Assembly (NCBI RefSeq): GCF_037975245.1
Contig: NC_092576.1
Span: 5,938,001-6,002,000, forward strand
Direction of reading: 5' to 3'
DNA from: Apostichopus japonicus
Taxonomy: Eukaryota > Echinodermata > Holothuroidea > Aspidochirotida > Stichopodidae
DNA: 64,000 bases
The notes under the pieces were generated by a model. It was not told the DNA's origin, did no database searches, and saw only the letters and a program-made list of their open reading frames with translations. Every line of letters begins with the position of its first letter. The first letter of the stretch is position 1. Below, in pieces: positions 3,505 through 62,790 of this stretch. A program made the position numbers and the translations under genes.

Positions 3505-3834
3505 GCACGGTTTTTTCATCAGATGAGTGCCAGTCTCCGCAATATCTGCAATTAGGAAAGAAAGGTACGATATCCTGTTACTATCCTGGTGATTTATATG
3601 GAGTAGGTTGGTTTAATTCAACCAGTGTGACTAGCGACGATCGACCATTTATATCCCTCACAGAAGGTAGAATATCTGGGCCCGGATATGAGTCCAGAGA
3701 ATACCTAGTTCACCCCAATGGATCTCTTACAATCACCAAAGTTTCCATCAAACATAATCATGTTTTCAGAGTAACGACGTTGGCCACTATAGATGAAGAT
3801 CCTATCTTTGAAGATGTTCGTGTAGTTGTCTATG
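3505..3834 (+). CDS. Copy A exon 2: V-like Ig domain
   Basis: This 330-bp exon, phase 1 in and out, is bounded by TTTACAG and GTAAGT. The domain starts DECQSPQYLQLGKKG, with B-strand Cys in TISC and a C-strand Trp in VGWFN. The end of the domain, where a Y-x-C is expected, reads HNHVFRVTTLA and has no Cys. It is homologous to all four V exons of copy B. Confidence 0.8.
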
Positions 3835-10348: not shown

Positions 10349-10416
10349 GATTGAAAGGATTCTGCTGCCGTTTGAATTTGAGAACAAGTTGAGCACGTTG
10401 CAGCAGAAGCCATTTG
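10349..10416 (+). CDS. Copy A exon 8: tail segment
   Basis: Encodes IERILLPFEFENKLSTLQQK and onward. Acceptor TCTCATAG and donor GTAATA are both intact. Same length as copy B 58934-59001. Confidence 0.66.
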
Positions 10417-11632: not shown

Positions 11633-11700
11633 TCCAGTGGGTAACTGGTGATGCATCTGCAGGAGTACTGCATTTGAATTACGATACTAATCAGTGGCAG
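11633..11700 (+). CDS. Copy A exon 9: tail segment
   Basis: Encodes VQWVTGDASAGVLHL and onward, between CTTTCAG and CAG|GTATGT. It is one codon longer than copy B 59720-59784. Confidence 0.6.
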
Positions 11701-11882
11701 GTATGTCCTGGTAACATGTGTTATATGAACATTTCATTTAAATTAGACTTATTTTTAAATATAATTTTTACATAGTACCAGAACTAACATAGTCAAAGTC
11801 ATGTTCTTGCTAAGGTCTTCTTGCATACACATCAAGGGAAGAAATGTTTACTAATCACTTTGTTATTTGTTTATTCACACAG

Positions 11883-11927
11883 AGTATTTGTCACGGCCCT
11901 CTGAACGAGTCTGTATATAACATGCTT
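11883..11927 (+). CDS. Copy A exon 10: tail segment with ITIM-consensus tyrosine
   Basis: Encodes SICHGPLNESVYNML and ends at CTT|GTAAGT. SVYNML fits the ITIM consensus (S/I/V/L)xYxx(I/V/L). Copy B has DEYEKI in the same place. A signalling role is inference. Confidence 0.58.
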
Positions 11928-12036
11928 GTAAGTAAACATAACTTAGTAAAATATACTTCAATACAGTGCAAACAAGAATGTGAACAGTAGAAGCCAACAA
12001 CACTTGGTTCCGTTCAACGACTCTCATATTTTTCAG

Positions 12037-12069
12037 GAGTGGCGCAATTACGTTTTACTTCTGGGGAGG
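12037..12069 (+). CDS. Copy A exon 11: tail segment with damaged donor
   Basis: Encodes EWRNYVLLLGR after TTTTTCAG. Where copy B has AAG|GTGAGG, copy A has AGG|GGGAGG inside a G-rich run. The GT donor is therefore gone, and the next GT is at 12081. Splicing here is doubtful. Confidence 0.5.
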
Positions 12070-12345
12070 GGGAGGAGGAGGTGGTTGCGCCACGGCTTTT
12101 CAGAAGATATATTAGACAGAACAGAAATGACCTGGATGTATCAGTATAATATTAAGAAGTAGAATTAATTGCCTATTCTTTCGTATTTATAAATGAAACT
12201 GCTTAAAATGTGTGTAGATTTTATTTTACTGTTTTATATAAATATCTTATAATTAGGCAAAGTCTACTAAAGTAATCATGAGTTTAGTGTTAGGATTACA
12301 TTGTGCCAAGAAGATCAGTGTATTACAATTAATATTCATCTATAT

Positions 12346-14302: not shown

Positions 14303-15127
14303 ATCTATATAGACAGATCATGTTGCTTTGTAGATGAGGAGATGTATCAGGCGTAGAAGGAACGAATAAAGGATTCATTGTTTGTGCAAACGTTACATTT
14401 CGTTTACATTTCCACTTCCGGTCGCTGTATGTACGTTATAGTAGCTGGTATGCTTGCCTACAAATTATGCTAACTGTAGACTAAGTTAGAAATGAACAGA
14501 GGAATGGATATTTTAGAAACTGGACAATGTTTGCATTTTAAAACAAAGAGCGATTAATTCCCATTATATTAATTGTATAACCATTGTGCAATTAAGCAGT
14601 AATTGGTGTATCATATTATGTTAAATTTGTATATTTAACTTAGTGACAATATTAAACTGTCGGCTGTTTCACATCTTGTTTTTCAGTGTACGAAGTTTGA
14701 GGTATGTTTTATTGCCATGCTGTAATAACTCTCCGCATTACCATGATTCCTAGCTTATAGCATCTTCTCTACAATCAAAGCTAAAATGGCGGTTAGAGGT
14801 TTATTATGAATGATTTATTACCTCTTGCAGAATTAATTATTAGTAGTACGCCACTTACAAACCCAAAGTATAGAGTACCCTTATAAACACATAACGTTTA
14901 AGTTCTGTTTTAAACTTTCATGTGGTTGTCGTTGGTAAACAGAGACTATGCAATTAGCTTCTTCTCAAGAAACAAAATGTAATAAAGTAAATAAATACAC
15001 AGAATAAGGTCATTTTCAATTTCAGGAGAAATATTTTTTCATTCACGTTTTCTTTCCGTGTTGGTTATGGATGTTTTGTTTATGTGAGTGATAATACTGA
15101 ACTTCATGTCTTACACTTGTATTACAG

Positions 15128-15151
15128 AAAGAGAAGGCAAATGAAGAAGTG
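15128..15151 (+). CDS. Copy A exon 12: 24-bp micro-exon
   Basis: Encodes KEKANEEV between ATTACAG and GTAAGT. Copy B has KERANKEV at 60418-60441 with identical splice sites. Conservation of such a small exon in both copies supports it. Confidence 0.62.
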
Positions 15152-16593
15152 GTAAGTAAACTGGTAAATTTAGTATCCCATTATAAGTAGAAATTATGCC
15201 TGTACTTTTCATCAGATTAAATTATCAAATTATTCTAGGAGCAGGAAAGGATTATATAGATATTGTGGTAAATTTGGTAAAATATTAAAGAAAACATTGT
15301 ACTTACGAGTAAAATGTCAGGATTTGTATGTGTTTATACAATTATGTGACCCATATGATTTGGATGGTACAAAATATGGGTTTTTAGTGTATCATCAACT
15401 TTTTGGCCTGTACTAAAACCTGTATTTGACAAACCAAAACATAGAGCAAAAATACTCTTCATAAACTAAAAACAACTGAAGTCGATGTTTTGAGATTAAA
15501 TTACGTCAGTTTGAGGAAATGGTTGAAAGTTTGAGGTATAGTAGTCGAAGGTTAGAGAATATAGAAATATATAAAAAAAAAAGAGGAAAAGTTGAAATTG
15601 TTAAATAACATCATTTTTTATTCTATGGGACGAAATCAAGCGAAGAGGTAAAAAAAGGTCGAAACGATCGAAATTTTGAGATAAGAAACTAAATTTAGGT
15701 ATTACAACTTAAAAACGAAAGTGGAATTTATATAAACAAAAGCTAGGTTAAGTGGGTGAAGCGGTCAAAATTTCGAGATAAAAAGTTTACCATCTGCACT
15801 GGCCCAACGAAGCATAAAAAAGTAAAATTCGTCTAGTAAAGATAGCCAAAGTGGCCACCGGTTACCATCCTATTGATAGCTCCTTGTGTACCTCGCTGCC
15901 CGTTGCTGTTGAGTTTGCCTTAGACGTCAGAGAGGACAAAGTTCGATAAATCTTAGTCATTGTGAAATGAGATCCCCCGTTCTTGGACTGCCGTGTAAGA
16001 GGAAGTAAATATGTTATGCCTTTTAACTGGTTATTGGCTATGTGTCACATGATTCCTTAAACATCACCTGTACAAATTGCAAAACAAATTAACTTGTTGC
16101 CACAAGGCACTCTAACTATGGACATTAATAAAATGTAAACGTACACGGGAAGGGAGGAGGAGCCGACTGGGGGACCAAGGGTATAACATGATTGGGGAAT
16201 ACCCTCATTGCCCTCCCCGCACCTTGGTTCCGCCACAACGGTCATGACTTAACTGTGTTCACAACAAGATAGTGTGGTTGCCATGGTGAATAACATGTGA
16301 TAACATGGTAGCACGTAGTTTATGAAGTCATGAAATCGAAACAATGTTAAAATGAAAGATCTTTAAGCTAAATGATTTTGGAATTCATTGTATAGGTGTA
16401 CTTTGAATGCAAAGTGAATGATGTAAACAACTGAATAATATAATAACTGGAATCAGATCACTATTCACAGTTTCAATTTGTTTAACCTTGTGTTTGCTAC
16501 ATAAAACATGGTTACTGTCTTTTCTTCTTGTTGATCATATTTTATATTTTAATGTTGTATGTTATAATATTCTTACTCATTTGTTGATTTCAG

Positions 16594-16610
16594 ACCGACC
16601 AAACGGAAGG
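16594..16610 (+). CDS. Copy A exon 13: 17-bp micro-exon
   Basis: Encodes TDQTEG between TTTCAG and GTAAGT. It is identical in copy B at 62362-62378, including both splice sites. Confidence 0.58.
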
Positions 16611-16669
16611 GTAAGTCTTAATACTGCGATTCCATATCTGAACTGATAAACCGTGTTCTAGATTCGTAG

Positions 16670-17215
16670 GTAACGAAATAATATATCATGTGTTGCAAAA
16701 ACTACTACAGTACTAATGTCATCATTTGTGTACAATCAATAAGCTACAGTAATAATGCCGTCATATGTGTACTAATGTCGTCATTTTTGTACAATCAGTA
16801 AGCTATACAGTACAATGTTGTCTTTTGTGTACAACCACTTAGCTAAAGTACTAATGTCATCATTTGTGCACAGTCAATAAGCTACAGTACTAATGTCGTC
16901 ATTTCTGCACAATCTCTAAGCTACAGTACTATTGTCGCCATTTCTGCACAATAAATAAGCTACAGTATTATAACGTCTTACTTTGTGTACAATCTCTAAG
17001 CTACTGTATCCTTGTCATCATTTGTGTACATTCTGTAAGCTACAGTACTAATGTCATCATTTGTGTACAATCTCTAAGCTACAGTACATATGTCTTACTT
17101 TGTGTACAATCGGTAAGCTACAGTACAAATGTCGTCATTTGTGTACAATAAGTACACTGCACGACACATGCCGTCCTTTACGCACACTCACTAAGCTAAT
17201 GTACAATATGTAGAG
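16670..17215. repeat. Minisatellite of about 40 bp in the last intron of copy A
   Basis: About a dozen imperfect units contain AGCTACAGTACTAATGTC and TTTGTGTACAATC. The same family occupies the matching position in copy B (62490-62790), so the array predates the gene duplication. Confidence 0.75.
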
Positions 17216-43335: not shown

Positions 43336-44019
43336 ACTCATGTTATTAATTATGTTTTCTCCTCTCTTCTCTTCATAGATATGTAGGTCTCATCCGAGAA
43401 AACGATTGAGGAAGACAGAAAGAATAGAGAGAACTACGGTTGAAGGTATGGGGGATGTGAAATGGGTACAATGAAGGGACATAAGCGCTGAAGCGAGTTT
43501 ACTATGTTCATGAAAACCGCCAAACTCTTTTAGTCCCCCAAAAATATCCAAGCCCCATTTTAAAACGCTCACCCCATCAAAAAGAGCGCCCTCTTTTAGC
43601 CTGTCGGATATCGGATGGTACGGATTCTAAATTAGTACCGTTTTAGGTACTGTTTTCTTTATAGTTGTTTCTGGGGTGGACCTTCCTGCATTTAAAGAAA
43701 TACTATGTCTTGATTGGATACTGTTTTGTATTATCATTTTGATTGGTTGAAACACTGATGACCAGCCAGGGTCAGACTGGTCATCAGGTTCTTGTAAATA
43801 GTGTTTTAGAATATAAAGCAGAGTTGCACAAAACTCCAGAGTGTGTAGGTGTCTTTTTTAATCTTTGAGTTTTCCCACTCGGTCTCTAAAAATTGTTAAT
43901 GTCAGATCGAGTTGAACAGCAACCCTAAAACAGTATATATTTAACTGTAGTAAGAAGGAAGTGCTAACGCTACCAAGCGGAATATGTGAAATTGCTCGAA
44001 TGTATGTGTAGCACTATGT
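43336..44019. other. Unassigned
   Basis: An AATATAAAGC at about 43809 could be a TATA-type box, but no gene follows that I can support. Confidence 0.35.
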
Positions 44020-44130
44020 CATGTACATATCTTATTGTGAAAGGTTACAGTACCTCTAAAAAGTACGGTGACGAACGTTACACTATGCATGCAAACCCGA
44101 GTAGCATATCGTTTTACAGCATACAATCAG
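44020..44130 (+). repeat. 5' flank of copy B shared with copy A
   Basis: Matches 2412-2512. Here it lies 3.3 kb from the first exon instead of 0.5 kb, because the foldback element and other repeats intervene. Confidence 0.65.
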
Positions 44131-44519
44131 CTTACATTCAGCATACGATCGCTTCACAAACTCTTCCTCAAAGTTCATGAACTAGCCTATGCCTATTAAG
44201 TATATATAGAATTAACTGGATGTACTCCAACTATTGCACTATAAATAACTATTGCAAACGCCGTTTAAATGGATAACATTGAGGGAACATTATATAACTG
44301 AGTTAAATTTATTGTGAAATCTTGGAATGGTTAGCCCATTTGTGAAGGAACCAAAGTATGATCAACATAGGAAGTTTGGAAAATGACAAGTTTCATTGTA
44401 AATGGTGTCTCCTACCAAACAATAGCGCGGGTTTACGTTAAAGAGACACGTTGCTATACCTAGTAAGTAAGATGGGCATCAGTGCATATCTGTTGACTTA
44501 GTAAGGACTAAAAGCTTGT

Positions 44520-46783
44520 TGGGCCATTCCGTGTCAAATCACGGATGGCTGTTGCTGCACCCTCTCCAAAAATTCCCAAATTTTTTGTATGATTGGACCA
44601 CCATGACATAAGCATATTCTGAAAATTTCAGTTGCATTGCTTTATAATTGGCCGATTTATCACACTTTGAAATTCCGCAATTTATCACCTCCATGGCATT
44701 TTGGCATTTTCTTGACTTTTGAGGTCTCATTTCTCAGCAATTAAACATTCTACTACCTTTCTATTACAGATGCCTATAGAGTCTAACCCATAGAACAGGA
44801 AAATAAAAAATTAGGCTACAAAAATATTGTCTTGTGGAGTTAGGTCAACTTAAAAGTGTCAAAATATTTAATTTTTGTACTTTTCACTAAAAAATGTGCT
44901 ATTTTGAGTGATGAATTGCTCCTAAACCATTGCTTCAGGGTACTTGATTCTTTCAGAGGTTATTATGTCTAGTACAAACATTACAAAATAATGATTACAA
45001 TGCTTTCCTAGAATATTTTTGCAAGTTGTGCAACTCTAAAGTTGCTATTTCATGCTGCGATTCAGCATGAGGTAGGGGTTTTGATGCCAATTTTTTACCA
45101 AAGTAACCATGTTAGAGGTGTCAGGGTTTATACTTTATTAATAAGTATAAAGTTCTTACACATTAACAAATTTCAGGGTTCTAGCTGTTCTCAATATTAA
45201 TTTATGAAGTTGTTAAGTTGCTCCGATGTACAAAAGAGGTCGTTTTTGACGGCCAATAACTCAAAACGCGTCAAATTAAAAAAAAATTGATAATTTTTTC
45301 TGGAAGAGATACAGTACCACCCTGTTTGTACAAAAAATTTCAGGAGGGTGTTTTGCCTTATTTTGAAATGAAAAATCCTCAAAGTTTGGGATTTTTACAA
45401 AAAAACGTTTTTGCCTGTTTTGATGTTCCATGAGTTTTGAGCCTGGGTATTGTACTGTACTTCAAGGTCATTCAGTTCAATGCTGTGCAGTTTTTAATTT
45501 CATATAACAAAATACTATTTGCAATGTACTTGTCTGCTCCTGGTTGAATTCATTTAATTAGAAGACTTATAAAATGAATTTCAACCAGTACACACATATG
45601 TATATACAGTGTGCATAGTACATACACTGTACTGAGTGTATATGTACGGAGTGCCATGAGTGCCAGAAGACTTTGTTAAAACAACACTAACACACTGTAC
45701 ATGTACACCCAGTACAGTTTTGTACTGTACATACATCTATGTACTGGTTGGAATTAATTTTATAGTAAAGTCTTCTAATTCAACCAATTGTATATGTGCA
45801 GTGTGTATATTAGTGTTAGTTTAAACATAGTCTTCTGGCACTCATGGCACTCCGTACATATACACTCAGTAGAGTGTATGTACTGTACAGGCAAAAACGT
45901 TTTTTGTAAAAATCCCAAACTTTGAGGATTTTTCATTTCAAAATAAGGCAAAACACCCTCCTGAATTTTTTTGTACAAACAGGGTGGTACTGTATCTCTT
46001 CCAGAAAAAATTATCAATTTTTTTTAATTTGACGCGTTTTGAGTTATTGGCCATCAAAAACGACCTCTTTTGTACATCGGAGCAACTTAACAACTTCATA
46101 AATTAATATTGAGAACAGCTAGAACCCTGAAATTTGTTAATGTGTAAGAACTTTATACTTATTAATAAAGTATAAACCCTGACACCTCTAACATGGTTAC
46201 TTTGGTAAAAAATTGGCATCAAAACCCCTACCTCATGCTGAATCGCAGCATGAAATAGCAACTTTAGAGTTGCACAACTTGCAAAAATATTCTAGGAAAG
46301 CATTGTAATCATTATTTTGTAATATTCGTAGTAGACATAATAACCTCTGAAAGAATCAAATACCCTGAAGCAATGGTTTAGGAACAATTCATCACTAAAA
46401 ATAGCACATTTTTTAGTGAAAAGTACAAAAATCAAATATTTTGACACTTTTAAGTTGACCTAACTCCACAAGACAATATTTTTGTAGCCTAATTTTTTAT
46501 TTCCCTGTTCTATGGGTTAGACTCTTTAGGCATCTGTAATAGAAAGGTAGTAGAATGTTCAATTACTGAGAAATGAGACCTCAAAAGTCAAGAAAATGCC
46601 AAAATGTCATGGTGGCGACAAATTGCGGAATTTCAAAGTGTGATAAATCGGCCAATTGTAAAGCAATGCAACTGAAATTTTCAGAATATGCTTATTTTAT
46701 GGTGGTCCAATCATACAATAAATTTGGGAATTTTTGGAAAGGGTGCAGCAACAGCCATCCGTGATTTGACACGGAATGACCCA
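44520..46783. mobile_element. 2.26-kb foldback palindrome
   Basis: Arms of about 900 bp (44520-45420 and 45883-46783) are near-perfect inverted copies with no net length change: each position x matches 91303-x. Outer ends are TGGGCCATTCCGTGTC and its inverse, and each end holds a small hairpin CCGTG-TCAAAT-CACGG. The 460-bp centre holds its own shorter inverted repeats. No transposase and no clear target duplication. Mirror reading frames in the arms are by-products of the palindrome. Confidence 0.85.
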
Positions 46784-47260
46784 TTAATGAGGTCACAGGT
46801 CAAACGTGAAAAACTCCCAAGTTGCAATAACTTAGCTACTATTTATTGGAATTTCGTCAAACTTGGTATGATGATATTGGTCGATAGTCTCCACACACTG
46901 ATGTGTGTTGCAATTGATATCATGCATGTTTATAAGGGGGGGGGGGGGGGGTAGCATTATTTCGTTATGAAAAGTTTGTATGCACAATAACTCAACAAGG
47001 GAATGACCAATCATTACCATACTTGGTGAGTGGGTGGCCCATAGTAAGTAGATTATCCCTGTTGATGTTGGTGCTCATTTCATGAATATTAATGAGGTCA
47101 TGGGGTCAAACGTGAAATACTCCAAATTGCAATTACTTGGCTACTATTACTAGTCGGAATTTCGTCAAACTTGGTATGATGATAATAGTAGATAGTCTTC
47201 ACACACTGATGTATGTTGCAATTGATATCAGGGCTTAGCATTACTTTGGCAACAAAAGTT
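46784..47260. repeat. Two tandem units of about 307 bp
   Basis: Both start near TTAATGAGGTCA and share GGAATTTCGTCAAACTTGGT and CACACACTGATGT. They abut the foldback right end. A G run at 46937-46950 interrupts the first unit. Confidence 0.75.
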
Positions 47261-47380
47261 TGTGAGCATAAATTACTGTTGTTGTATTAGGGCTTTGTTA
47301 GAAATTTCCCTATGAATGGAACTAATGAACAGCAGCAAGGAACCATGAAATGTTTTCATTCTGGTTTTTTTCTTTCTCAG

Positions 47381-47435
47381 ATGTCTACAACAAACCTTTT
47401 TGTGATCCCTGCTATCCTTTGGTGCATTTTAAGTG
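47381..47435 (+). CDS. Copy B exon 1: signal peptide
   Basis: MSTTNLFVIPAILWCILSG, ending at a GTAAGA donor in phase 1. It is the only signal exon for the four V exons, which argues for exon duplication within one gene rather than four genes. Confidence 0.77.
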
Positions 47436-50400
47436 GTAAGATCCAGTACCGGGTACCGGATTTATCTTGGAGACTGGGGGGGGGGGGGACTGCGGTGGGT
47501 TATATATGTATGGGAGAAGGAAGATTACATGTTATCATAAAGATACAAGAAGTGAAATAAAATACCTGCACTCCAGTATTAAGACTTCCTCTGTCTGGAG
47601 AAGTACTAACTCAATCACATCACATGCATACGCCCAGCATTGGGAGGATGGAATTGTCAGGTAAGGGTTGGGGGTGGTGACCTTTGTAAATGTGGTGAAT
47701 GTGTCTGGCAAACTGATGAAAATGCAATGTGGAGGATGCTATTCTGTTTGGGTAAGGATGCCAATGGAATGGTATTTTTAAAATTGTAGTTGAATGCAAG
47801 GCAAAATTCATTACAATTTCATATGATGGTTCTATGTTCCTTAGAATTAACAATTTAAATACATTTTGGACTGGAGAATGGAACTCGGTCTAAGGGAAAA
47901 ATATACTACAACTTTCATTTGATAAGAAACAAGATAAACGTCTTTTTTCTTAAATTACAGGCACGGTTGTCTCATCAGATAAGTGCCAGACTCCGCAATA
48001 TCTGCAATTGGGAAAGAAAGGTAGGATATCCTGCAACTTTCCTGGTGGTTCATATGGAACATGTTGGTACAACTCGTCCAATTTGACTAGCGAAGATCGA
48101 CAATTAATTTGCCACAGAGAAGGTATTGTATTTGGACCCGGATACGAGTCCGGAGAATACAGTGTTCAACCTGATGGATCTCTTGTTATCAACAAAGTTT
48201 CCACCAAACATAATACTTCTTTCGGTGTATTGACATTGGCGACTACAGAAGAAGATCCAATCATTGAATATGTCCGTGTACAGTAGTTGTCTACGGTAAG
48301 TCGATTTCTTTGATAACAACATGCATATCTGTCGAAACATTGGAGCGAAGAGATAGAGCACAATGCAACGTGGAATCCACAGAAAAAAAAAAATAAGAGG
48401 TTCAACATTTCGACTGGCACTTGATAGAGCCCGACGAAACACGTCATAAGCATAACTCAGGTAGATTCCTTCCATAAGTTTTAGATACGCGCCTGTTCGT
48501 TAGATCTCCGAACCCTTTTCTGTACATTTCTCTAGCTCATGTAAATATTTTCAACCTCAAGTTATCCTCCAATAAGAGAACAATCGAGCCAATGACCAAT
48601 TTTACGCCTATTGTTTGGAGATTTCTTCTCAGAAATCGTTCGCGTTTATCACGAATAAAAGCTTGGTAAAGGATTCCTTGATGATCATCACATTCTCCTA
48701 TCATATCTCGTTATCATGTTTCAGACATTGCCTTCCTAGTTTAGCTGACAATAAAAGAAGTCAATCGGGGATTTGTTCATTCATCAATCTATCCATTTAT
48801 TCATCTACTCACTCACTCATATGTTTATAATGCAAACGATGAAAAAAGAGACCGGGGACTGCGGTGGGTTATACAGTATATGTAAGGGAGAAGGAAGGGT
48901 TACAGGTTTACATAAAGATACAAGAAGTAAAATGAAAGACCTGCCTTCCGGTATTAAGACTTCCTATATGTCTGGTGAAGTACTTACTCAATCACATCAC
49001 ATGCATACGCCCAGCATTGGGAGGGAAGAATTGTAAGGTATGGGTTAGGGGTGGTGACCTTTGTAAATGGGGTGAATGTGTCTGGCAAACTGATGGAAAT
49101 GCAATGTGGAGGATGCTATTCTGTTTGGGTAAGGATGCCAATGGAATGGTATTTTTAAATTGTAGTTGAATGCAAGGCAAAATTCATTACAATTTCATAT
49201 GATGGTTCTATGTCCCTTAGACTTAACAATTTATACATTTTGGACTGGAGAATGGAACTCGGTCTAAGGGAAAAATATACTACAACTTTCATTTGATATG
49301 AAACAAGATAAACGTCTTTTTTCTTCAATTACAGGCACGGTTGTCTCATCAGATAAGTGCCAGACTCCGCAATATCTGCAATTGGGAAAGAAAGGTATAA
49401 TATCATGCAACTTTCCTGGTGATTTATATGGAACAGTTTGGTACAACTCGTCCAATTTGACTAGTGAAGATCGACAATTAATTTCCAACATAGAAAGTTT
49501 TGTATTTGGACCCGGATACGAGTCCGGAGAATACCGTGTTCAACCTGATGGATCTCTTATAATCAACAAAGTTTCCACCAAACATAATACTTCTTTCAGT
49601 GTATCGACATTGGCGACTACAGAAGATGATCCAATCGTTGAATATGTCCGTGTAGTTGTCTACGGTAAGTCGTTTTCTTTGATAACAACATGCATATCTG
49701 TCGAAACACTGAACCGAGTTCAGAGTTTGGAACGAAGAGGTAGAGCACAATGCAACGTTGAATACACAGAAAAAAAAATAAGCGGTTCAACATTTCGACT
49801 GGCGCTTGATAGAGCCCGACGAAACACGTCATCAGCATAACTCAGGTAGATTCCTTCCATAAGTTTTAGATACGCGCCTGTTCGTTAGATCTCCGAACCC
49901 TTTTCTGTACATCTCTCTAGCTCATGTAAATATTCAACCTCAAGTCATCCTCCGATAAGAGAACAATCCAGCCAATGACCAATTTTACCCCTACTATTTG
50001 GAGATTTCTTCTCAGAAATCGTTTGCGTTTATAACGAATAAAAGCTTGGTAAATCACATGCATATGCCCAGCATTGGGAGGGACTAATTGTCAGGTAAGG
50101 GTTGGGGGTGGTGACCTTTGTAAATGTGGTGAATGTGTCTGGCAAACTGATGGAAATGCAATGTGGAGATGCTATTCTGTTTGGGTAAGGATGTTGTTTT
50201 AACTGTAGTTGAATGCAAGGCAAAATTCATTACAATTTCATATGATGGTTCTATGTTCCTTAGACTTAACAATTTATACATTTTGGACTGGAGAATGGAA
50301 CTTGGTCTGAGGGAAAAATATACTACAACTTTCATTTGACATGGAACAAGGTAAATGTCTTTTTTTCTTCAATTACAGATACGGTTGTCTCATCAGATAA

Positions 50401-53400
50401 GTGCCAGACTCCGCAATATCTGCAATTGGGAAAGAAAGGTTTAATATCATGCAACTTTCCTGGTGGTTTATATGGAACAGTTTGGTACAACTCGTCCAAT
50501 TTGACTAGCGAAGATCGACAACTAATTTCCAACAGAGAAAGTTTTGTATTTGAACCCGGATACGAGTCCGGAGAATACAGTGTTCAACCTGATGGATCTC
50601 TTGTTATCAACAAAGTTTCCACCAAACATAATACTTATTTCGTTGTATCAACATTGGCGACTACAGAAGATGATCCAATCGTTGAATATGTCCGTGTAGT
50701 TGTCTACGGTAAGTCGTTTCTTTGATAACAACATGCATATCTGTCGAAACACTGAACCGAGTTCAGAGTTTGGAACGAAGAGGTAGAGCACAATGCAACG
50801 TTGAATACACAGAAAAAAAAAATAAGAGGTTCAACATTTCGACTGGCGCTTGATAGAGCCCGACGAAACACGTCATAAGCATAACTCAGGTAGATTCCTT
50901 CCATAAGTTTTAGATACGCGCCTGTTCGTTAGATCTCCGAACCCTTTTCTGTACATCTCTCTAGCTCATGCAAATATTCAACCTCAAGTCATCCTCTGAT
51001 AAGAGAACAATCCAGCCAATGACCAATTTTACCCCTACTATTTGGAGATTTCTTCTCAGAAATCGTTTGCGTTTATAACGAATAAAAGCTTGGTAAATCA
51101 CATGCATATGCCCAGCATTGGGAGGGACTAATTGTCAGGTAAGGGTTGGGGGTGGTGACCTTTGTAAATGTGGTGAATGTGTCTGGCAAACTGATGGAAA
51201 TGCAATGTGGAGATGCTATTCTGTTTGGGTAAGGATGTCAATTGCATGGTATTGTTTTAACTGTAGTTGAATGCAAGGCAAAATTCATTACAATTTAATA
51301 TGATGGTTCTATGTTCCTTAGACTTAACAATTTATACATTTTGGACTGGAGAATGGAACTTGGTCTGAGGGAAAAATATACTACAACTTTCATTTGACAT
51401 GGAACAAGGTAAATGTCTTTTTTTCTTCAATTACAGACACGGTTGTCTCATCAGATACTGTAAGTGCCAGACTCCGCAATATCTGCAATTGGGAAAGAAA
51501 GGTATAATATCATGCAACTTTCCTGGTGGTTTATATGGAACAGTTTGGTACAACTCGTCCAATTTGACTAGCGAAGATCGACAACTAATTTCCAACAGAG
51601 AAAGTTTTGTATTTGAACCCGGATACGAGTCCGGAGAATACAGTGTTCAACCTGATGGATCTCTTGTTATCAACAAAGTTTCCACCAAACATAATACTTA
51701 TTTCGTTGTATCAACATTGGCGACTACAGAAGATGATCCAATCGTTGAATATGTCCGTGTAGTTGTCTACGGTAAGTCGTTTTCTTTGACAGCAACATGC
51801 ATATCTGTCGAAACACTGAACCGAGTTCAGAGTTTGGAGCGAAGAGATAGAGCACAATGCAACGTGGAATCCACAGAAAAAAAAAAACAATAACAGGTTC
51901 AGCATTTCGACTGGCGCTTGATAGAGCCCAACGAAACATGTCATAAGCATAACTCAGGTAAATCCCTCGCATAAGTTTTAGATACACGCCTGTTCGTTTG
52001 ATCTCCGAACCCTTTTCTGTTAACTTCTCTAGCTCATGTAAATATTCAACCTCAAGTCATCCTCCGATAAGAGAACAATCCAGCCAATGACCAATTTTAC
52101 GCCTACTATTTGGAGATTTCTTCTCAGAAATCGTTTGCGTTTATAACGAATAAAAGCTTGGTAAAGGATTCCTCGATGATCATCACATTCTCCTATCATA
52201 TCTCGTTATCATGTTTCAGACATGTCTCCCTTTAGCTGACAATAAAAGAAGTCATCGGTGTTTTTTTTTCATTCATCAATCCATCCCTTTATTCATCTAC
52301 TCACTCACTCATATGTTATTAAACAAACGATGAAAAAAAGAGAAAAGTGAGACTCTGTCCGCATAAAAACCATACACAAGATCAAATATTCTCATGTGAT
52401 TAGTAGCTTACTTTAATAGAGTTGCAATGGTTCAACAGTGTAAAAAGTTACATTACTGAAATACCATTAGCACTGAAGCCACTTTCATAGTGAGAATATA
52501 TATCTAACCGTCTAACTACACTGCATCACATTAAGACCCTATAATGAAGCTACGAATAAATATAAATAACATGCAGTGTCCACCTGACAACTGGATGTCA
52601 TTTGGTAATTACAGTCGTTAACATACTGTTTTCAGTTAATCATCTAACTATAATATCTTTGTGAGGAACAAGCTAAAGCTTACATTTCCTATTGAAATAT
52701 TTAACAAAGAGTACCGACTTCCTTGCGCCCTTTAATTGTTAGTAAACCCAACACAATTAATAGTAGACCATATAAACATGCCTAATACTTTTTGGCTGGA
52801 CACTATTATTGTAATACGTCTTTCTTTTCACAATTTGCAGATAAACCACCTGAACCGTACCCAACCATTGATGCTACTGGATGTTACCAGAAATCATTAT
52901 GCTTTTTAGAACTAAACGCTGCTTCAAGTTTAAGTTGTAATGTTTTACGAGTAGGTGAAGTATTAGATGATTTGTCATGGAAGTTAAGAACTTACACTGG
53001 GGATGGACAGATCTCTTCTCAGTCGAAAGCTGTAACAACCAGTGTCAATGAATTACAATCTTACTATACTGTTGTAGATATTTCGTTACCAACCTCTCTC
53101 TCATTACGTTTATTCGTCTGCGCAGCGAGAAGCAATGTGTCTGAAGTAGGTAACAATGAATCTACGATACTGGTTGAAAGCGGGACACTGGAAGCATCTA
53201 GCGAACCTCTGCTTGTAACTCTTAATGAAAGAGTGGTTATGAACTGCGGGGAAGATGTGTTATTCTTTGTATGGAAAAAAGTGGGTCAAACGGAAGAAAT
53301 TATTGCATTTGGAACTAAAATTAGGAGTGAAGTTATGATGCCTGATGGATTCACATTGCAAAGTAGCTCTCTGGTCATAAACACGGTTAAAAATCCTACC

Positions 53401-56400
53401 TTGGGCACGTACACGTGTGTTTACAGCACTGACGGTGTTACAACAAAATTTACATCAACTGATGTAACTTTTCAAGGTAAGATCTAAGGTAAAGTGCAAA
53501 CCTTCCCAATTACTATTTATTTGCAGGTTAAATTATAAGTGGTGTGCCAGTTCACTTAGTAAACCTGAACTTATAGAATGTTTTTCTTGTTTTGATTTGG
53601 AATTGAAGGAGAAGTGTTGCTGAGAAAGTGTTATAGTGTTAAAAAAATAACTAATATGTACTTTAACTTTTATACGGTGTATAGTTGTAAAGTCGTGTGA
53701 GGAGGCATTAGCCTCATACAAGACTGTAAGACTGTAAACCTTAAACTATAAACTTTAGTTCATGATACCGATTTGATATACCCCTATAAATCATTCACAT
53801 GCATGTTTGGGCTACCATGAACCTATTAAACATAGCTGTGTTGATATGTTATCTGGAGATGATGTCAACTTGTATTTGGAATTGTTGATGTTCATGTTTG
53901 ACCATTTCTCTTGGCATTTCAGAGGAGGAAGGACGAACTGGTAGGATTGGTGTTGTTGTGTTCTTTGTGCTCTTTGTGTTCTTGTTATTGAATTTCATCG
54001 GAGTCTTCTATCGACGTAAAGGTAATTGACTGATTAATCAGTAAATATCAAGCTTACTCTGAAGTATCTAATAGACTCCTGTTTAATTGACTGATTGATT
54101 TTCGGTTATGATTTCTTTTGCAATCAGACTGTTGTCGAGGCTTACTTAGATAACTCTAGACTGTGAAATCAGTTTTCCCCGATCAGGTATCTCTGCTTAA
54201 TTAATTTATATTTACATACTTCGAAGCCATTGCAATATGTGATTCCTGTATATCTGGTTCAGCCTTTCCTTGCCCCTCTAACAGCTATTCCATGTTCCCA
54301 TCATTGATACGGCATTGTGTTAACTCCGACTTGTAGCTTGAGGGGTGGGATGGGGGCCTTCCATTGCAATAAAAGGGCATCCCATGCAGATTACACCCCC
54401 TCCCCCCGTAAACTATAATGAGGAAGGTCTTCCATTGCTAGGGCATCCCCTGCAGATTGTATCCCCCCCCCCCGTACACTAGCTTGAGGGGTGGGATGAG
54501 GGTCTTCCAAAGCAATAATAGGGCATCTCTCACATATTACATCCCCCATATACGTTTGATTAATACCCTCCCAGATGTTCTTTATGACCTCTTAATCCTT
54601 CCTGGTATAGAATTCTGGAAATGTTTTCCTGCGATTCATGTTTATCACGTGATAATTAGATGTAATAGCATCATTTTTTTTTAAGCTGTTGACTAGAAAA
54701 ATGCATGCATAACTTATTCGTTAAGACACACAGTCCAAAATCAGAGTTTAGTCAACGAGGTATACGATATCAACATGAACGATTTAAATATGAAATAGCC
54801 TAAATTGGTGAAATAGCATAAATAGATGAAATAGCCAAAAAGATGAAATAATATATATAGCATATATAGATGAACAGATGAAATAGATTAAACGGATGAT
54901 TAAACGGAAAATTAAACGGATAAACAGATGAAATGAATGAAATAGATATTAAATAGATGAAAAAGATGCAATAGGTGAAAAAGATGCAATAGGAGAAAAA
55001 ATGCAATAGGTGAAAAAGATGAACTAGATAAAATAGATGAAATAGATCAGAAAGATGAAATAGATCGAATAGATTAAATATATGAAATAGATCCGATAAA
55101 TTGGATAGATTGGATAGATTTGATAGGTTAGTTTGATTAGAGAAATTATAAAAATATAGAGAGATTAGAAATATTAGGTATATTGAAAAGATTAAATTGA
55201 TTGTGCTATTTAAACGTTACTATACATGAACATGCTGACATAAAACTAGGCAATTAACAGAGCAGATTCGTTTACAGAGTATTTTAAGTCTCACCGACTG
55301 AGAACAAGTCGTGCTTTGGGTGTGTTCCTATCATCAGCACTATAACAATGAGATGATCACTTTGTATATTTATGCATCACTAGATTCACATATAGAGTGG
55401 TACACGTCATTTCTTTAGATCAGAGTTCAAGTTGTCAATGCAGTTTCCGTGAAAACGAGTGACTCACATCCCACAAATCTCAGGCGTCAAGTTATGTACA
55501 TAACTATATATTATCTTACCTAACGTATGACGTTTGAAGCTTGTGTCCTTTAGTATTAATACTTTTATTTTCGCTGTTAGAACTACAGCTTGCATTACTC
55601 AGATGAGTAATACAGTTTATATCTTATCTGCACTAGAGCATTATTGCAGACGACTACTGAGTATAACACACAAGCAAAAACTCAATCCTAGGGAAAAGGT
55701 GACAGAAGAAGAATTAAAAGGTATCTAAGCTATCTATATTTAGTTGATTAATTCATAGATTATTTAAAACTTTCAATAACTGTGTATTTAATTTTGATGT
55801 AAAATAGCGATGCTTTCTCAGTTTGGATTCACAAGGTTTTCTGTACTGCACCTGCATATAAGTTTAATTTAAAGTTACCCAGAATGACATAGAATACGAG
55901 CATTATGTTGCTACTCATAAATCGATTTTTGGTTTCGATAAATATCGTAACCTTTGCAGTCATGATGGCGTGCGTATGTATGCGTTTGCGACGCCCAGCT
56001 TGTAAACATGATATCTCACGAAGGGAAAGTTGGACCAACTTCATGTTTGGTGTGTAGATGTACCACATTGAGTACAAGAAGCCTATTGTTTTCTGTGCAG
56101 GTCAAGGTCATTTGGGGTAACCAGGGGTCAAAACGGGGAAACCTTGTAAACACAATATCTCAAGAAGGGAAGCTTGGGCAGACCTCATATTTGGTGTGTA
56201 AACGTACCACATGGAGCACAAGAAGCCTATTGTTTTCTGTGGAGGTCAAAGTTGATTAGGGTCACTAGGGGTCAAATTGTAAAAACATTGTTAACACCAT
56301 AGCTCATGAAAGAAAGATTGGGCAAACCTCATATTCAATGTGTAGAAGTACCACATTGAGCACAAGAAGCCTTTCGTTTTATGTGGACGTCAAAGGTCAT

Positions 56401-59400
56401 TTCGGGTCACCGAGGTCAAATTGTGAATACATTGTAAACACACTAGCTCAAGAAAGGAAGCTTGGGCAGACCTCATATTTAATATGTAGAAGTACCACAT
56501 TCAGTACAGGAAGCCTATTGTTTTCTGTGGAGGTCAAAGGTCATTTAGGGTCGCTAGGGGTCAAATTGTCAAAAACTTGTAAACACGATATCTCAAGAAG
56601 AGAAGGTCGGACCAATTCATATTTGGTGTGCAGACGTACCACATTGAGTTCGAAAAGCCTAAAGTTTTTGGTGTAGATCAAAGGTCATTTGGGGACAACA
56701 GGTCAAATCGTGACAACCTTGTAAACATGATATTGCAAGAAAGGACAGATTTCATATTTGGTTTGTAGATGTACCATAGTAAATTTAAGGAGCCTTTTAT
56801 GGCTATTGGTGGAGGTCATTTGAAGTCAGCAAATGCCAAACATTTACTTCACTACCCTCTTACCTCTCTTTCCACACTAACACATCTTCCTAAACATAAT
56901 ATCGTAGGGAAGCTTGGACAGATCGCATATTTGGTATGTAATTGTACCACATTGAGTACAAGAAGCCTTCATGTTGTGGGCGGAGGTCAATGGTCGTTTG
57001 AGTTCACCAGGGTCATATTGTGAACCCACATTTTATACAATATTTCAACAAGGACTGATGTCATATTTAGTATGTTGATGTATCTATTACATTCACTACA
57101 AGAAGCTTGTTGTTTAGCTCAATGGTCATTTCAGGACAGCCTGTGTCATTGTGAATGTATTGTTTGTCACACCACACTGCTTTTCACTGTATTACTAATA
57201 TCAAGTATGTTGTACACCCTCACTATACGTCATTACATCAGATTCATGCAGAAAATAGCTGAATGTAACATCATCGAAACCACTACGCATTTTCGCATTC
57301 TGGTTATTCTTTCATTTTAAAGAGTGGTGTAAGAAAGTTCTAATTTCGAAAGACGAAACTCAAGATACACATGATGGTATAGTGGAGAGGTTGAAGAAAA
57401 CATCCAATGAACAGGTGAAAAACATTATAAAAGAATTACTGAGTAATTACCTTACTTTCGATTCAGTTTGAAAAAGCAATATAGAAATGATGTGTCTATG
57501 CTTGATGTTCTTTTTTTCAAACCATGATAGGTGTGATGGAAGGGTCTGAAAATAAGAGGCTTTGAAAATAAAGGTGACCGATACGTAGAGAGTTACATTC
57601 ATTATTTCATTTTATCTTGTTATGATTTCAAAATAAAACATTAGCCACACTATACACTAAGTTCATATGTACACCTAACAAGTGATTGTCCAATATGTTA
57701 ACCGTTTTAACATGTCGTCTTAATTCATGATGTTTCGATACATTGGGTAAAATGATGGACTTCGTAAACGCACACGTGATGTTGAATAACTCATGAAATA
57801 TGTAAATTTTTTGCATATTTGTGAATAATAATTTGTAACATTCAAATGCTAAAGTTTAAAGCGGTTAAGATGTGAATAAGATGTATATAGAACAAATGTG
57901 TTAAATAAAAGAAACTTTTTTTGTGGCACAGAGGTGAGCCATTTTCCTTTGGTTGCCGTTCATCTCCATTGCCATTTAGCCTGTTACTTTCCGATCCACA
58001 AGTTGTTTGGGGCATACTTATCTAGAACTAAACGTACAGGCATTACTTAATTAAAGAGAACCATGGAGCCAAGAACACCAGGATTGTAATATCAATATCA
58101 TAAACATAAAAAACATCTAATTTAAGACAACTGTCTTGTTGCAATTTTTAATTTTCATGTTAGGATTCATTTTACACGATAAGATACACCTTAGATTGCT
58201 ATAGCAATTGTAAACTATATTCCTGTTGGTCAGTCCTTGAATTACTTTGTAAACCATTCTGATAACTAATGCTGATAGTTTTTTTGAGGTTCCTCATTCA
58301 TGATTCTCAAAGTTATTATGTAGTTAATTTCTTGAATAGGTTGACATTGAATGGATTATACTGCAAGACAGCTTTACGTCAGTTCAAGAACAAGGTGACG
58401 CTATCAATCTTAGCTCTGGAGCAGTTTTACCTCCGCTTAACACTTTGAAAACATTGGACATTGTAAACAAGAAATGGCAGCAATTGGACTTAACCGAATG
58501 GATAAATATCCTGAAATATGCCTGTCACGGACATAAACCAACCAAGATCAAGTAAGCATGTTATATTGAACAGTCGACTATTATTCAGATGGTCTGAGAA
58601 AGAATTACATTTATTTAATTTACCAACTTATTGAAATGATTCCTGTTAGAGTATATTTATATGTGAAGACGTTTCAGCAACATGTCGCACCATATCGTGC
58701 TGACTTACACATAATATATATATTTAGCGAATTGATTGATTTATCTACCAAAGAAATTACAGTGGTGTGCTCCTCCATTTGAGCAGGCTGAATGTGTGAA
58801 ATGGAAACAAAAATGATATTAAAAACAAGAATACTTGAAAAACCTCTTTGGGGGGCTTATAATAAGATTAATGGACCTTTTTAGTGTATCTAATTACAAC
58901 AAACTGACGAACTACTACCATTACTTCTCACAGGATTGAAAGAATTCTGCTGCCCTTTAACTTTGAGAACAAGTTGAGCACGTTACAAAAGAAGCCACGT
59001 GGTAAGAATGCAGTTTAACAAATTAATCTTTACAAATAAATTTATCTTTACAAATAACTGTTGATGAGGTGAAATACTATGGTGTTAATGATTGGAACTA
59101 CACGATTAAGTACAAAGACTAATGCGATTATCGCTATCGTGTGTTCAACAGGTTCGAGAAAAATGGAGATTTGTTCACGACTTTATCGAAAATCCTAAAA
59201 GCTACTTATTTAACGACTGGTAGAGGAGCGAGTCATTTGAGATTAACAATCAGTTTAACAGATTGTATTAACATTTCTATTGACCTCATAACTGGACAAA
59301 TAGTGTCCCAGTCCATTGTTTAATCCTATATGTCGCAACCAAGCAAATTGCTATCATATTTGTTCAGTTGATATTTTCGTCATACAATTTTTCAGGTGTT

Positions 59401-62378
59401 AGTTATGCGTTAAAAAAAAAAATTCAAGCTCTAGTAGTACTTTTAAGATAAGTTCTCCCAAGATCAATGCATCTTCTATTGGCTTCTTCTCTTCCTGTTG
59501 TTAGCATATAGGCAGTACACCTACAGTTGACGACATGCACAGTCCCATGTGAAAGGGAGTTTTAACAAATATGAGTTGTGAACAGGACGCCAGTAAATTT
59601 AGGGGGTAATAAAGGAGTCCGAATGCAGTATAGACAAAACGATCTTTTACTAAATGTTTTACATGTTCAAGTTTTCATAGATACCAGACTAAAGAAACTC
59701 TTTTTACGGTCTCTTTCAGTTGAGTGGCAAACTGGTGTTATATCTGCAGTACTGAGAATGATTTACGAAAATGAACGGTGGGAGGTATGTCCTGGTAACA
59801 TTATGTTATATGAAGATATCAATTTTAAACACACTTTTACATAGTGGAAGAAAAATAACATGGTCAAATTCAAGTTCTTACGAAGGTCTTCTTGCATACA
59901 TATCAAGCTAAATAATATGGACTAATCATAAGTTATTTGTTTATTCACACAGAGTACTGGATCACGTCCACTGAAATATGATGAATATGAAAAGATCGTA
60001 AGTAAACATTACTTAATCGAATATCTTTCAACCCAGTGCAAAAAAGAATGTGAACAGTAGAAGTCAACAACAACATATTACATTCAACAAATCTCACATT
60101 TTTCAGGATTGGTCAAATCTTGTTTTACCTCTGGGAAAGGTGAGGGCGGTTGCATCACAGCTTTTCAGAAGATATATTATACAGAACAGCAATATGAAGA
60201 CATAACGTTACGTTCTGTATTAAACTTTTGTGTGATTGCCGTTGACTAACAGATACTGTACAATTAGCTTATTCACAAAATACGAGATGTAAAAAGTAAG
60301 TTCATTTCCAATTTCGGGAGAAAAAAAATCATTCACGTTTTCTCTCCGTGCTAGGTTTGCACGATGTGTGTATTTGGGTTATAATATTGAACTTCATGCC
60401 TTACACTTGTATTACAGAAAGAGAGGGCAAATAAAGAAGTGGTAAGTAAAAAGGAAAAAGGTAGATTTATTATTCCATTATATCTTCCATCATTTTATAT
60501 AAGGATAAGGCAATGATTCAATATATGTTGTGGTAAACTTGCTTATTATCAAACAAAAGATTGAACGTAAGAGTTAAATGTAAAGATTTGGATATGTTTA
60601 TACAATTGGAAATGTGTATACCACTTTCTGCTATTCAATAATGTGATCCATAATATTTTGGTGGGACGAGATATGGGTTTTTAGTGTAAAATCAAAACAC
60701 TCTTGCCGCCCTCTCGTTTTTCCTTTCCACCACAATAGGTTAGGACAAATATTTACCTTAATGACCATAGGGATAGCAGTTGCATGGTGGGCTGGCGGGA
60801 TGTAGTCCTCCTCCCCCCCCCCCCTTTCGGCACTGCTAAAATACGGTTCGAAAAAATAATAATCGAGCAAAAATCTTCAGAAAAAATTGGCTTAAACCAA
60901 TCAATATTTGATCAGGCTTATATTTACTCAAGAAGCATAGCTGCATCGGTATTGTCTTAAAATAAATACCCGTTTTAAAACCGTACTTGGAAATGAAAAA
61001 TAATCTTCGAATGATCTGTTTTGTTACACACGCGTACTCCAAAATATATTATTTTTTTCAAAATTACACGGCTACACTACTACACTTAGTACCACCCTGT
61101 CATACTTAATGCCAGCCTTATTGTACGTTAAATTTAAAACCTTAACTAATAGACTTCCGAGAATTTTTTTTTTAAAACCTTAACCATAGTCAAGCGATTA
61201 TTTGCTTGTTACACATACCCCATAAGTCATAATGTTGGAGGAGATAGTAGATATTTTGAAATAACCAAACGTCGTACTATAAAGTCGACGGTTTGAAAAT
61301 TATAGGACGTACTTTTGAGGAAATGTTTGATAGTTTCAGGTAAAGTCGTTTAAATTTACAGGGAAAAAAACAGTCAAAAGTTTTAGAATATAGAAGTTTG
61401 ATATAAAATAGTCGAAATTTTTAAATATAACTTGAGACATAATTTCTTATTCTTTGGTAAGAAATCAAACAGGAGGTAAAAAAAGTCGATGAGATCGTCA
61501 TTTTGAGAAAAACAGAAATGTTGGGTATTACAACTGAACTCCCGAGAAAAAAGCTGAAATGATATGAACAAAAGCGAAATTTAGGGGGTAAAGCAGTCAC
61601 AATTTAAAAGATAAAATGTTGAAGTATACCATCTGAAGTGGCCTAACGAAGCATCAACAAAAGTAAACTTAGTCTAGCAACGATACCCAAACTGGCAACT
61701 GATTATGATTCTCCCCTCCAACTGCCCGTCCTTTTGATAGCGCCCCTATACGTACCTCACTGTCCGTTGCTCTTACGTTTGCCTTTGACTTGGTAAAGTT
61801 GGTTAAGATGTAAATTGCTGTGTAGGCAAGCAATAAATACCTGCTATGTATTTGCTATGTGGGGGTGGGGGTGGTTACAAATTATGACTTTAACAACTGA
61901 TTTGTATTGACTATACACGTAGACGAGATGGGAGCCGACTGAGGCCTGGGTGCAAACATGATTGGGAATGCCCTCATTGCCCTCCCCAACCCCCATGCCC
62001 CCCCTTGATGCCGCCACCGCGGTTATGACTTTAAATGGTAGATATGTTCACAACAAGGTAGTGTGGTTACCACGGTGAATTTTATATGATAACATGGTAG
62101 AACACCGATCCTAAACTCATTCGATTACAACATTGTTAAGTTGAAAGTTAAGTAAGATAATTTTATAATTCATTGTATGTGTTGACTTTAAATGCAGTGT
62201 GAATTATAGAATAACTCAAATCAGATCGTTACACACGGTTTCAATGTTTATAATGTTGTGTTTTGCTACATGAACCAAGCTAAGTGTCTTTATTCATGTT
62301 GATCATATTCCATATTTTAATGTTGTTTGTAATAATATTCTTACCCATTTGTTGCTTTCAGACCGACCAAACGGAAGG
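47381..62378 (+). CDS. IgSF transmembrane receptor, copy B, with four V exons
   Basis: Exons: 47381-47435; V1 47961-48295, V2 49335-49664, V3 50379-50708, V4 51437-51771; 52841-53476; 53923-54021; 55589-55720; 57323-57414; 58340-58551; 58934-59001; 59720-59784; 59953-59997; 60107-60139; 60418-60441; 62362-62378; the last exon is not seen. All V exons enter and leave in phase 1, so any number can be spliced in or skipped. V2 and V3 are intact, while V1 and V4 carry 5-bp insertions. There is one signal exon and one transmembrane exon for the array. With V2 or V3 the reading frame is open throughout the visible exons. Recognition by the V domain and signalling by the tail are inferred from architecture. 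Confidence 0.75.
47961..48295 (+). pseudogene. V exon 1, frameshifted by a 5-bp insertion
   Basis: The domain reads DKCQTPQYLQLGKKGRISC and has two extra cysteines (GTCWYN and LICHRE). Near the 3' end it has CGTGTACAGTAGTTG where V2-V4 have CGTGTAGTTG. The extra CAGTA after TA makes a stop at once (YVRVQ then TAG). The length is 335 bp instead of 330. Confidence 0.8.
49335..49664 (+). CDS. V exon 2, intact
   Basis: 330 bp, with acceptor CAATTACAG and donor GTAAGT. Cys in DKCQ and IISC, Trp in TVWYN, then YRVQPDGSLIINKVSTKH. The F-strand position reads HNTSFSVSTLA, without Cys. Open in the correct phase throughout. Confidence 0.82.
50379..50708 (+). CDS. V exon 3, intact
   Basis: 330 bp, near-identical to V4 apart from V4's insertion and a few bases. 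Starts DTVVSSDKCQTPQYLQL and ends VEYVRVVVYG. The repeat unit around it (about 1050 bp) matches that of V4 on both sides, so the V3/V4 duplication is recent. Confidence 0.82.
51437..51771 (+). pseudogene. V exon 4, frameshifted by a 5-bp insertion
   Basis: Near the 5' end it reads TCAGATACTGTAAGTGCC where V1-V3 have TCAGATAAGTGCC. The extra CTGTA after TA shifts the frame and leads to an early stop. It also creates CTGTAAGT, a donor-like string. The rest of the domain matches V3. Confidence 0.82.
52841..53476 (+). CDS. Copy B exon 3: two Ig domains
   Basis: 636 bp, phase 1 in and out. Domain one has SLSC, DDLSWKL and LFVCAARS. Domain two has VVMNC, FFVWKK and the canonical GTYTCVYSTDG. Fully open, and a guide to the one-base loss in copy A. 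Confidence 0.85.
53923..54021 (+). CDS. Copy B exon 4: transmembrane segment
   Basis: EEEGRTGR, then a hydrophobic stretch of about 21 residues rich in V, F and L, then YRRKG. One codon longer than in copy A. Confidence 0.78.
54337..54545. repeat. Three tandem units in copy B intron 4
   Basis: Units share AGGGGTGGGATG, CTTCCA and AGGGCATC, followed by C-rich runs. Copy A has a single unit near 7010-7080. Confidence 0.65.
54788..55200. repeat. AGATGAAATAGAT-type minisatellite in copy B intron 4
   Basis: Irregular units built from GATGAAATA and GATTAAACG. Not seen in copy A. Confidence 0.75.
55589..55720 (+). CDS. Copy B exon 5: tail segment
   Basis: Reads CITQMSNTVYILSALEHYC and so on to KVTEEELKG, between AACTACAG and GTATCT. 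It lacks the Gln-rich expansion of copy A. Confidence 0.65.
55985..57110. repeat. 144-bp tandem array in copy B intron 5
   Basis: Eight units share CAAGAAGCCTATTG, AGGTCAAAGGTCATTT and ATATCTCAAGAAGGGAAGC. The GCC landmark recurs at 56081, 56225, 56369, 56513 and 56657, exactly 144 bp each, then at 56792, 56964 and 57105 with drift. A single diverged unit lies at 17530-17720. Confidence 0.88.
57323..57414 (+). CDS. Copy B exon 6: tail segment
   Basis: Reads WCKKVLISKDETQDTHDGIV and onward. Same length and phases as copy A 8519-8610. Confidence 0.66.
58340..58551 (+). CDS. Copy B exon 7: conserved tail domain
   Basis: Includes INLSSGAVLPPLNTLKTLDI and WINILKYACHG. 212 bp, as in copy A. Family not recognised. 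Confidence 0.68.
58934..59001 (+). CDS. Copy B exon 8: tail segment
   Basis: Reads IERILLPFNFENKLSTLQKK and onward, with intact splice sites. Confidence 0.67.
59720..59784 (+). CDS. Copy B exon 9: tail segment
   Basis: Reads VEWQTGVISAVLRMIY and so on to RWE. More changed from copy A than the neighbouring exons. Confidence 0.6.
59953..59997 (+). CDS. Copy B exon 10: tail segment with paired tyrosines
   Basis: Reads STGSRPLKYDEYEKI. YEKI fits a YxxΦ sorting or SH2-type motif. Copy A has SVYNML here. Confidence 0.58.
60107..60139 (+). CDS. Copy B exon 11: tail segment
   Basis: DWSNLVLPLGK, with an intact AAG|GTGAGG donor, in contrast to copy A. Confidence 0.58.
60418..60441 (+). CDS. Copy B exon 12: micro-exon
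   Basis: KERANKEV between ATTACAG and GTAAGT, the partner of copy A 15128-15151. Confidence 0.6.
62362..62378 (+). CDS. Copy B exon 13: micro-exon
   Basis: TDQTEG, identical to copy A including splice sites. The following exon is not seen before the end of the window. Confidence 0.57.
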
Positions 62379-62489
62379 GTAAGTCTTTAAACTGAGGTTC
62401 AATTATGTACCTTATCTGAACTAATGAACCGTGCTCTAGATTCAGAGGTCACAACATCATTTATTATGTGTTGTAAACAATTTCTAACA

Positions 62490-62790
62490 ATTACAAGTAT
62501 ACCTCAATACAACTGTCGTCATCTGTTCACAAACAATAAGCTACAGTACAATTGTCGTATGTGTACAATCAGTAAGCTATACAGTACTAATGTCGTTATT
62601 TGTGTACAATCATTTAGCTACAATACAATTGTCGTCTGTGTGCAATCAGTGAGCTAAACAGTACTAATGTGGTTATGAGTGTACAATCATTTAGCTACAA
62701 TACAATTGTCGTCTGTGTACAATCAGTAAGCTTTATGGTACTAATGGCGTCATTTGTGTACAATCAGTTAGCTACAATACAATTCGTCCC
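62490..62790. repeat. Minisatellite in the last visible intron of copy B
   Basis: Same family as 16670-17215 (AGCTACAATACAATTGTCG, GTGTACAATCAGTAAGCT), here as alternating unit types. Confidence 0.75.

Follow-up and report, generated by a model that had tools for sequence, protein, structure and literature searches.

A 64,000-nucleotide stretch of the Apostichopus japonicus genome (C16:5938001-6002000, here called the window) carries a receptor gene with four tandem V exons, V1 to V4, two of which are interrupted by 5-bp insertions. The insertions, designated S1 (in V1) and S4 (in V4), have the letters of the footprint left when a transposon of the Sleeping Beauty (SB) kind is cut out of a TA site. 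They are exact, derived and young, and they are part of a set of like events in the same array, in paralogous arrays and on at least one other contig. S1 and S4 are very probably excision scars of a Tc1/mariner-type transposon with 5'-CAG termini and a 3-nt stagger, as in SB and Frog Prince. The type of footprint is textbook knowledge; what is new is two young, frame-breaking scars in a single receptor array and the evidence for the same process elsewhere in the genome. A literature search (titles and the starts of abstracts of the open-licence papers listed) on footprints in paralogous families, immune receptors and exons, and on A. japonicus Tc1/mariner elements, returned no report of this case.

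The V-exon footprints and their age

47961..48295, + strand: V exon 1 (V1), 335 nt, broken by footprint S1
48279..48285, + strand: footprint S1, TACAGTA; the inserted CAGTA is 48281-48285; TA in the sister exons
49335..49664, + strand: V exon 2 (V2), 330 nt, intact
50379..50708, + strand: V exon 3 (V3), 330 nt, intact
51437..51771, + strand: V exon 4 (V4), 335 nt, frame broken near the 5' end by footprint S4
51456..51462, + strand: footprint S4, TACTGTA; the inserted CTGTA is 51458-51462; TA in the sister exons

The sequence-only reading of the array had given TGTA-CAGTA-GTTG in V1 and GATA-CTGTA-AGTG in V4 versus a plain TA in the sister exons, and this description was exact. The V1 context is ...CCGTGTA-CAGTA-GTTGTC..., while V2, V3 and V4 have CCGTGTAGTTGTC at the same place; the V4 context is ...CAGATA-CTGTA-AGTGCC..., while V1, V2 and V3 have CAGATAAGTGCC. 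The two sites are 3.2 kb apart, each has gained 5 bp, and TACAGTA and TACTGTA are mutually reverse complementary. Both insertions break the frame, as had also been claimed. V1 acquires an in-frame TAG after ...YVRVQ, past its last strand, V4 is frameshifted near its start, and both exons measure 335 nt versus 330 nt. Among 33 V exons, of which 10 gave no usable length, the length was 330 nt in 20, 335 nt in V1 and V4, and 329 nt in the paralogous locus L021. S4 also generates a splice-donor-like string, GTAAGT, that may be used as a donor. The phases of the 330-nt V exons match, so omission of the broken exons by splicing would keep the receptor frame, and V2 and V3 would still be usable.

The genome (671,581,487 bases in 35 contigs) was searched with 761 bases of the array. 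Forty of 69 candidates were scored, every one of them on C16 in the interval 4.76-6.06 Mb, and 20 paralogous stretches were taken that, with the window, gave the 33 V-exon matches. The V4 site was a clean TA in 32 of the 33 aligned exons. At the V1 site, 31 of the 32 exons that reach it pass without an insertion and V1 alone has the 5 bp, a count based on match lengths; the remaining exon, in L024, falls short of the site. The paralog found at the window's left end, taken as an outgroup, has the 5 bp at neither site:

3505..3834, + strand: the only V exon of this paralogous gene; the S1 and S4 sites lack the 5 bp

The presence of a clean site in nearly all paralogs indicates that both insertions are derived, as far as paralogs can tell, and the expectation that the 5 bp would not be ancestral in an outgroup thus held among the paralogs.

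The closest relative of the array, L009, lies 115 kb upstream and is identical to the window at 5595 of 5627 aligned bases (99.43%) over 47362-53000. The internal indels that distinguish the two consist of six homopolymer changes of 1-2 bases and the two footprints, with no others; a 6-base gap is located at the extreme edge of the compared stretch. As S1 and S4 are the sole non-homopolymer internal indels, both scars are younger than the last exchange between the arrays. The stretch common to both loci extends from 46783 to 53686 (98.3% over 6.9 kb). To the right of 53686 the window and L009 match in pieces of 79-93% identity, and to the left of 46783 there is no alignment except for a dispersed repeat. 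Consequently, the two loci are not two haplotypes but paralogs whose core was shared recently. Two footprints versus 32 substitutions have arisen in 5.6 kb since that sharing, so that in this stretch the frame-breaking change due to cut-and-paste transposition would be comparable in scale to ordinary mutation. Homogenised arrays of paralogs serve as natural traps that retain a readable record of past excisions.

Like insertions in the cluster and on other contigs

Two footprints had originally been reported in the array. S1 and S4 are real, but the array holds three, the one overlooked being located upstream of V2:

48872..48878, + strand: footprint S3, TACAGTA; lies in a duplicated leader-intron segment within the intron that precedes V2; shared with L009 and L010

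Of 20 leader copies that were genotyped, 3 had the 5 bp of S3 and 17 did not; 15 of the latter read TTATATATG and two (L022 and L023) read TTACATATG. The 20 are the copies that matched the search pattern; a spurious hit in L016 was dropped and other, diverged leader copies were left out. S3 is common to L009 and L010 and is therefore an older scar.

TACWGTA insertions (W, A or T) were also found at position 2590 of L015, where the site is clean in ten comparisons, at position 194 of L010, where L014 has a clean TA, and at position 2135 of L019, with one comparison only (L018). The six cluster events (window 48279, 48872 and 51456 and these in L015, L010 and L019) have nothing in common but TA-CWG-TA, and their flanks are unrelated. 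In an alignment of 21 V units, trimmed by 60 columns at the start and 120 at the end, there were three single-unit insertions of exactly 5 bp, all of them TACWGTA; a fourth 5-bp gap was a deletion in one unit.

The alignments of paralogs contained 95 distinct 5-bp insertion contexts, 11 of the form TA-NNN-TA, and in 8 of the 11 the core was CAG or CTG. These counts exclude alignments shorter than 120 bases or below 75% identity, as well as gaps beside other gaps or in poorly matching flanks. When shared events were merged and one ambiguous event (L009 9118/L014 8226) was dropped, the core was CAG or CTG in six of nine TA-NNN-TA insertions versus 2.1% expected from the local base composition (P of about 7e-9). 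Among insertions of other sizes (3, 4 and 6-12 bp), the recurrent TA-core-TA classes had the cores T (5 contexts), TA (8), AT (3) and CCGGG (2); the TA and AT classes are TA-repeat slippage.

Transposase-bearing loci on other contigs were used as a control, and 3 of their 17 distinct 5-bp insertion contexts were TACWGTA. The clear case is at position 1862 of L042 (contig C9), where TACAGTA replaces the TA of three sister copies. The process is therefore not confined to the receptor array. Special targeting of the V array was considered and rejected, there being no evidence for it and a clear like event on another contig.

The insertion in L042 interrupts, at 1856-1875, the conserved PDLNPI motif of a Tc1-like transposase gene.

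The excision reading, its source and its alternatives

The typical SB footprint is TAC(A/T)GTA, according to PMC3432063, and PMC3878927 tables C(A/T)GTA for both SB and Frog Prince. The excision-footprint reading proposed from the sequence is now strongly supported: the letters are those of the published footprint, the clean TA is ancestral among the paralogs and like events occur elsewhere. A cut-and-paste DNA transposon of the Tc1/mariner superfamily would have inserted at one TA in V1 and at another in V4, the transposase would have cut with a 3-nt stagger, so that the element's CAG ends remained as overhangs, and one of these would have been kept by end joining between the duplicated TAs, giving TA-CAG-TA in V1 and TA-CTG-TA in V4. 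The element itself, its insertion step and its excision in the germline are what we infer from the scars. Local hopping, reported for SB and Tc1 in PMC3878927, could link the S1 and S4 sites.

SB and Frog Prince leave the same 5-bp insertion at TA in both the CAG and the CTG form, as seen here. However, the SB footprints of PMC3432063 were obtained in HeLa cells with an engineered vector, whereas those in the window are natural and the element is not seen. Another parallel is Stowaway, a Tc1/mariner miniature inverted-repeat transposable element (MITE) of Triticeae, for which alignments of related genes likewise revealed natural footprints and repeated losses and gains (PMC1925063). Unlike S1 and S4, the Stowaway footprints of beta-amylase are in an intron and have other letters (TA...GTA, TACT...AGTA and the like), and some of the sequences retain elements.

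Matches to transposase domains are present in the genome, at least 45 to PF13358, at least 25 to PF01498 and at least 33 to PF03184. PF01359 had no match, but since the same search was silent in all its control genomes this is not evidence of absence. The genome has open transposase frames of the superfamily and, by our own count, several open reading frames (ORFs) have DD34E spacing.

Several observations weigh against excision, 1) the source element was not found, and no copy with visible CAG ends was seen among the sequences scanned, 2) TA/CAG terminal repeats were absent from the scanned stretches of 33 transposase loci (L032-L061 and L063-L065) and of the pogo-type locus L062, 13 of L032-L061 having been rescanned with looser settings, although the families L032-34, L036/37 and L062 run past the scanned stretches and, their ends not being reached, do not count as a negative, 3) when 357 kb of sequence, overlapping in part, was searched for TACAG...CTGTA pairs whose terminal inverted repeats (TIRs) matched at 15 or more of 20 positions, there were five hits, all in the window, two of them inside a palindrome at 44520-46783 and three weak, and since five control motif pairs gave 0, 4, 5, 0 and 0 hits the count of CAG-ended TIRs is at chance level, 4) a Tc1 terminal motif, TACAGTNNNNTGCNAAAGT, had 17 matches versus 11 for its reversed control and a narrower one, TACAGTACYDTGCRAAAGT, with one mismatch, 19 versus 7, neither with an inverted pair, and these were not taken as evidence of a family, 5) no paralog with the element still at either TA was found among the paralogous arrays compared, 6) outside the cluster, TACWGTA insertions occurred in just one repeat family (L032-34/L042) and in none of the others compared, including 16 copies of the L045-L060 unit, 7) the two weaker outside cases, L032 2684 and L032-34 957, are both at short inverted repeats and could be templated, 8) the event L009 9118/L014 8226 can equally be read as a tandem duplication of GTACA and 9) within 30 bp, S4 has an inverted TACAG, at the splice acceptor, and S3 a direct one.

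Large insertions between paralogs, part of which were checked for TA/CAG ends, included none that fitted. The palindrome was rejected as a source, as the TACAGTA strings within it do not form its boundaries. Either the source is a scarce, highly mobile element or its ends fall outside the stretches seen. Should it turn up and prove still active, it would represent an active Tc1/mariner-type transposon that is native to an echinoderm. A bolder proposal, which we regard as a long shot, is that a hyperactive CAG-ended Tc1/mariner-type family was hopping in the germline until very recently, with scars outnumbering copies, and that in the receptor cluster, where paralogs keep exchanging, the scars serve as an on/off editor for V exons, so that individuals differ in their usable V exons. 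The scars make it testable whether V-exon usability in the cluster differs between individuals through transposition.

The transposase loci on C9 include a tandem array (L044-L058, C9:37374000-37464776) of mostly ~5.7-kb units that reaches the end of the contig. A 384-aa Tc1-like transposase ORF is present in 13 of the 15 units, and the unit has 325-nt direct repeats; inverted repeats were not found in it. L063-L065 are copies of the L045 family, whose repeats are direct, not inverted.

The scars might instead derive from a pogo/Tigger-type element, TA-targeting and CAG-ended, or from a MITE moved by one, rather than from an SB/Tc1-like transposon, an origin that is possible but rather unlikely. 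Pogo elements often begin with CAG, some of the PF03184 (DDE_1) matches have long open frames, and the 0-4 bp footprints of the pogo-group transposon Passer were described as similar to those of Tc1/mariner. The exact published match, however, is to SB and Frog Prince, and the one near-identical group examined, L062 and three further copies, 97-98% identical over the whole 4.5 kb, has no CAG terminal repeat in that stretch, which does not reach their ends. A footprint of the hAT or RAG type, judged by the scar forms generally known for these systems, was rejected, as the letters shared by the insertions are TA-CWG-TA only.

Ordinary microinsertions that resemble footprints, produced by slippage, templated insertion or repair errors, are very improbable. 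The direct or inverted repeats next to S3, S4 and the two weaker outside cases are in keeping with such an origin, but in V1, L015, L010, L019 and L042 the inserted 5-mer, in two rotations, has no direct or inverted copy within 30 bp. Moreover, the excess of CAG and CTG cores in the deduplicated set and the standing of S1 and S4 as the only non-homopolymer internal indels in 5.6 kb both argue against microinsertion.

An assembly artefact, with the two arrays as haplotypes of a single locus or the 5 bp as mere sequencing errors, is exceedingly improbable; the 0.57% divergence of the arrays is low enough to be allelic, but haplotig duplication was rejected on the flank mismatch between the window and L009, errors would not yield footprint letters at unrelated loci, and the matching A. 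japonicus assembly was built from HiFi reads (PMC10344927).

The receptor gene and its surroundings

The region 47381-54021 reads as a receptor gene in which the four V exons are preceded by a leader exon and followed by an exon for Ig-like domains and a transmembrane exon:

47381..47435, + strand: leader exon with donor GTAAGA, coding for the signal peptide MSTTNLFVIPAILWCILS plus the first base of the following codon; segment also in paralogs
52841..53476, + strand: exon coding for two further Ig-like domains (Ig_3, E 0.0014, below the curated cut-off)
53923..54021, + strand: transmembrane exon, ...GRTGRIGVVVFFVLFVFLLLNFIGVFYRRK

The leader and transmembrane exons, and the count of two Ig-like domains, were read directly from the sequence. 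The V domain matched Ig models weakly, with V-set in 3 of 6 members and a best E of 0.023, below significance. A profile of six V domains gave CEACAM-type IgV domains as its top solved structures, PDB 5vst (named Biliary glycoprotein, E 1.5e-5) and 4y89 (CEACAM7, E 9.1e-5). The sequence match is a distant one, and we do not assign the gene to the CEACAM family; here the V exons form a tandem array.

Just two cysteines, those of positions 8 and 24, are common to the six aligned V domains (V2, 49335-49664, and paralogs); the second cysteine usually seen close to the domain end is absent. CEACAM N domains likewise are not known to have that disulfide.

The ends of the window, 2403-17150 and 44011-62784, resemble an old segmental duplication, with ordered pieces of ~67-88% identity; gene A has one V exon and gene B has four. 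The palindrome upstream of the receptor array is 2.26 kb long and near-perfect, with 779-nt arms that are 96% complementary and further inner arms, and its right edge falls where the stretch common with L009 begins. In L024 the V-exon match (1762-2543) stops near its end, and the last 43 bp are found downstream, inverted.

Two other insertions were observed among the copies. One, of 74 bp (53687-53756), lies in the intron before the transmembrane exon, is absent from the 11 other copies listed and is without TA/CAG ends. The second, of 364 bp, is at L016 602-959 (5043-5400 on the reverse complement) and has inverted termini CAGGGTTGTCCAACC; it is absent from nine other copies listed, one of which has slightly different ends, and is presumably hAT-like.

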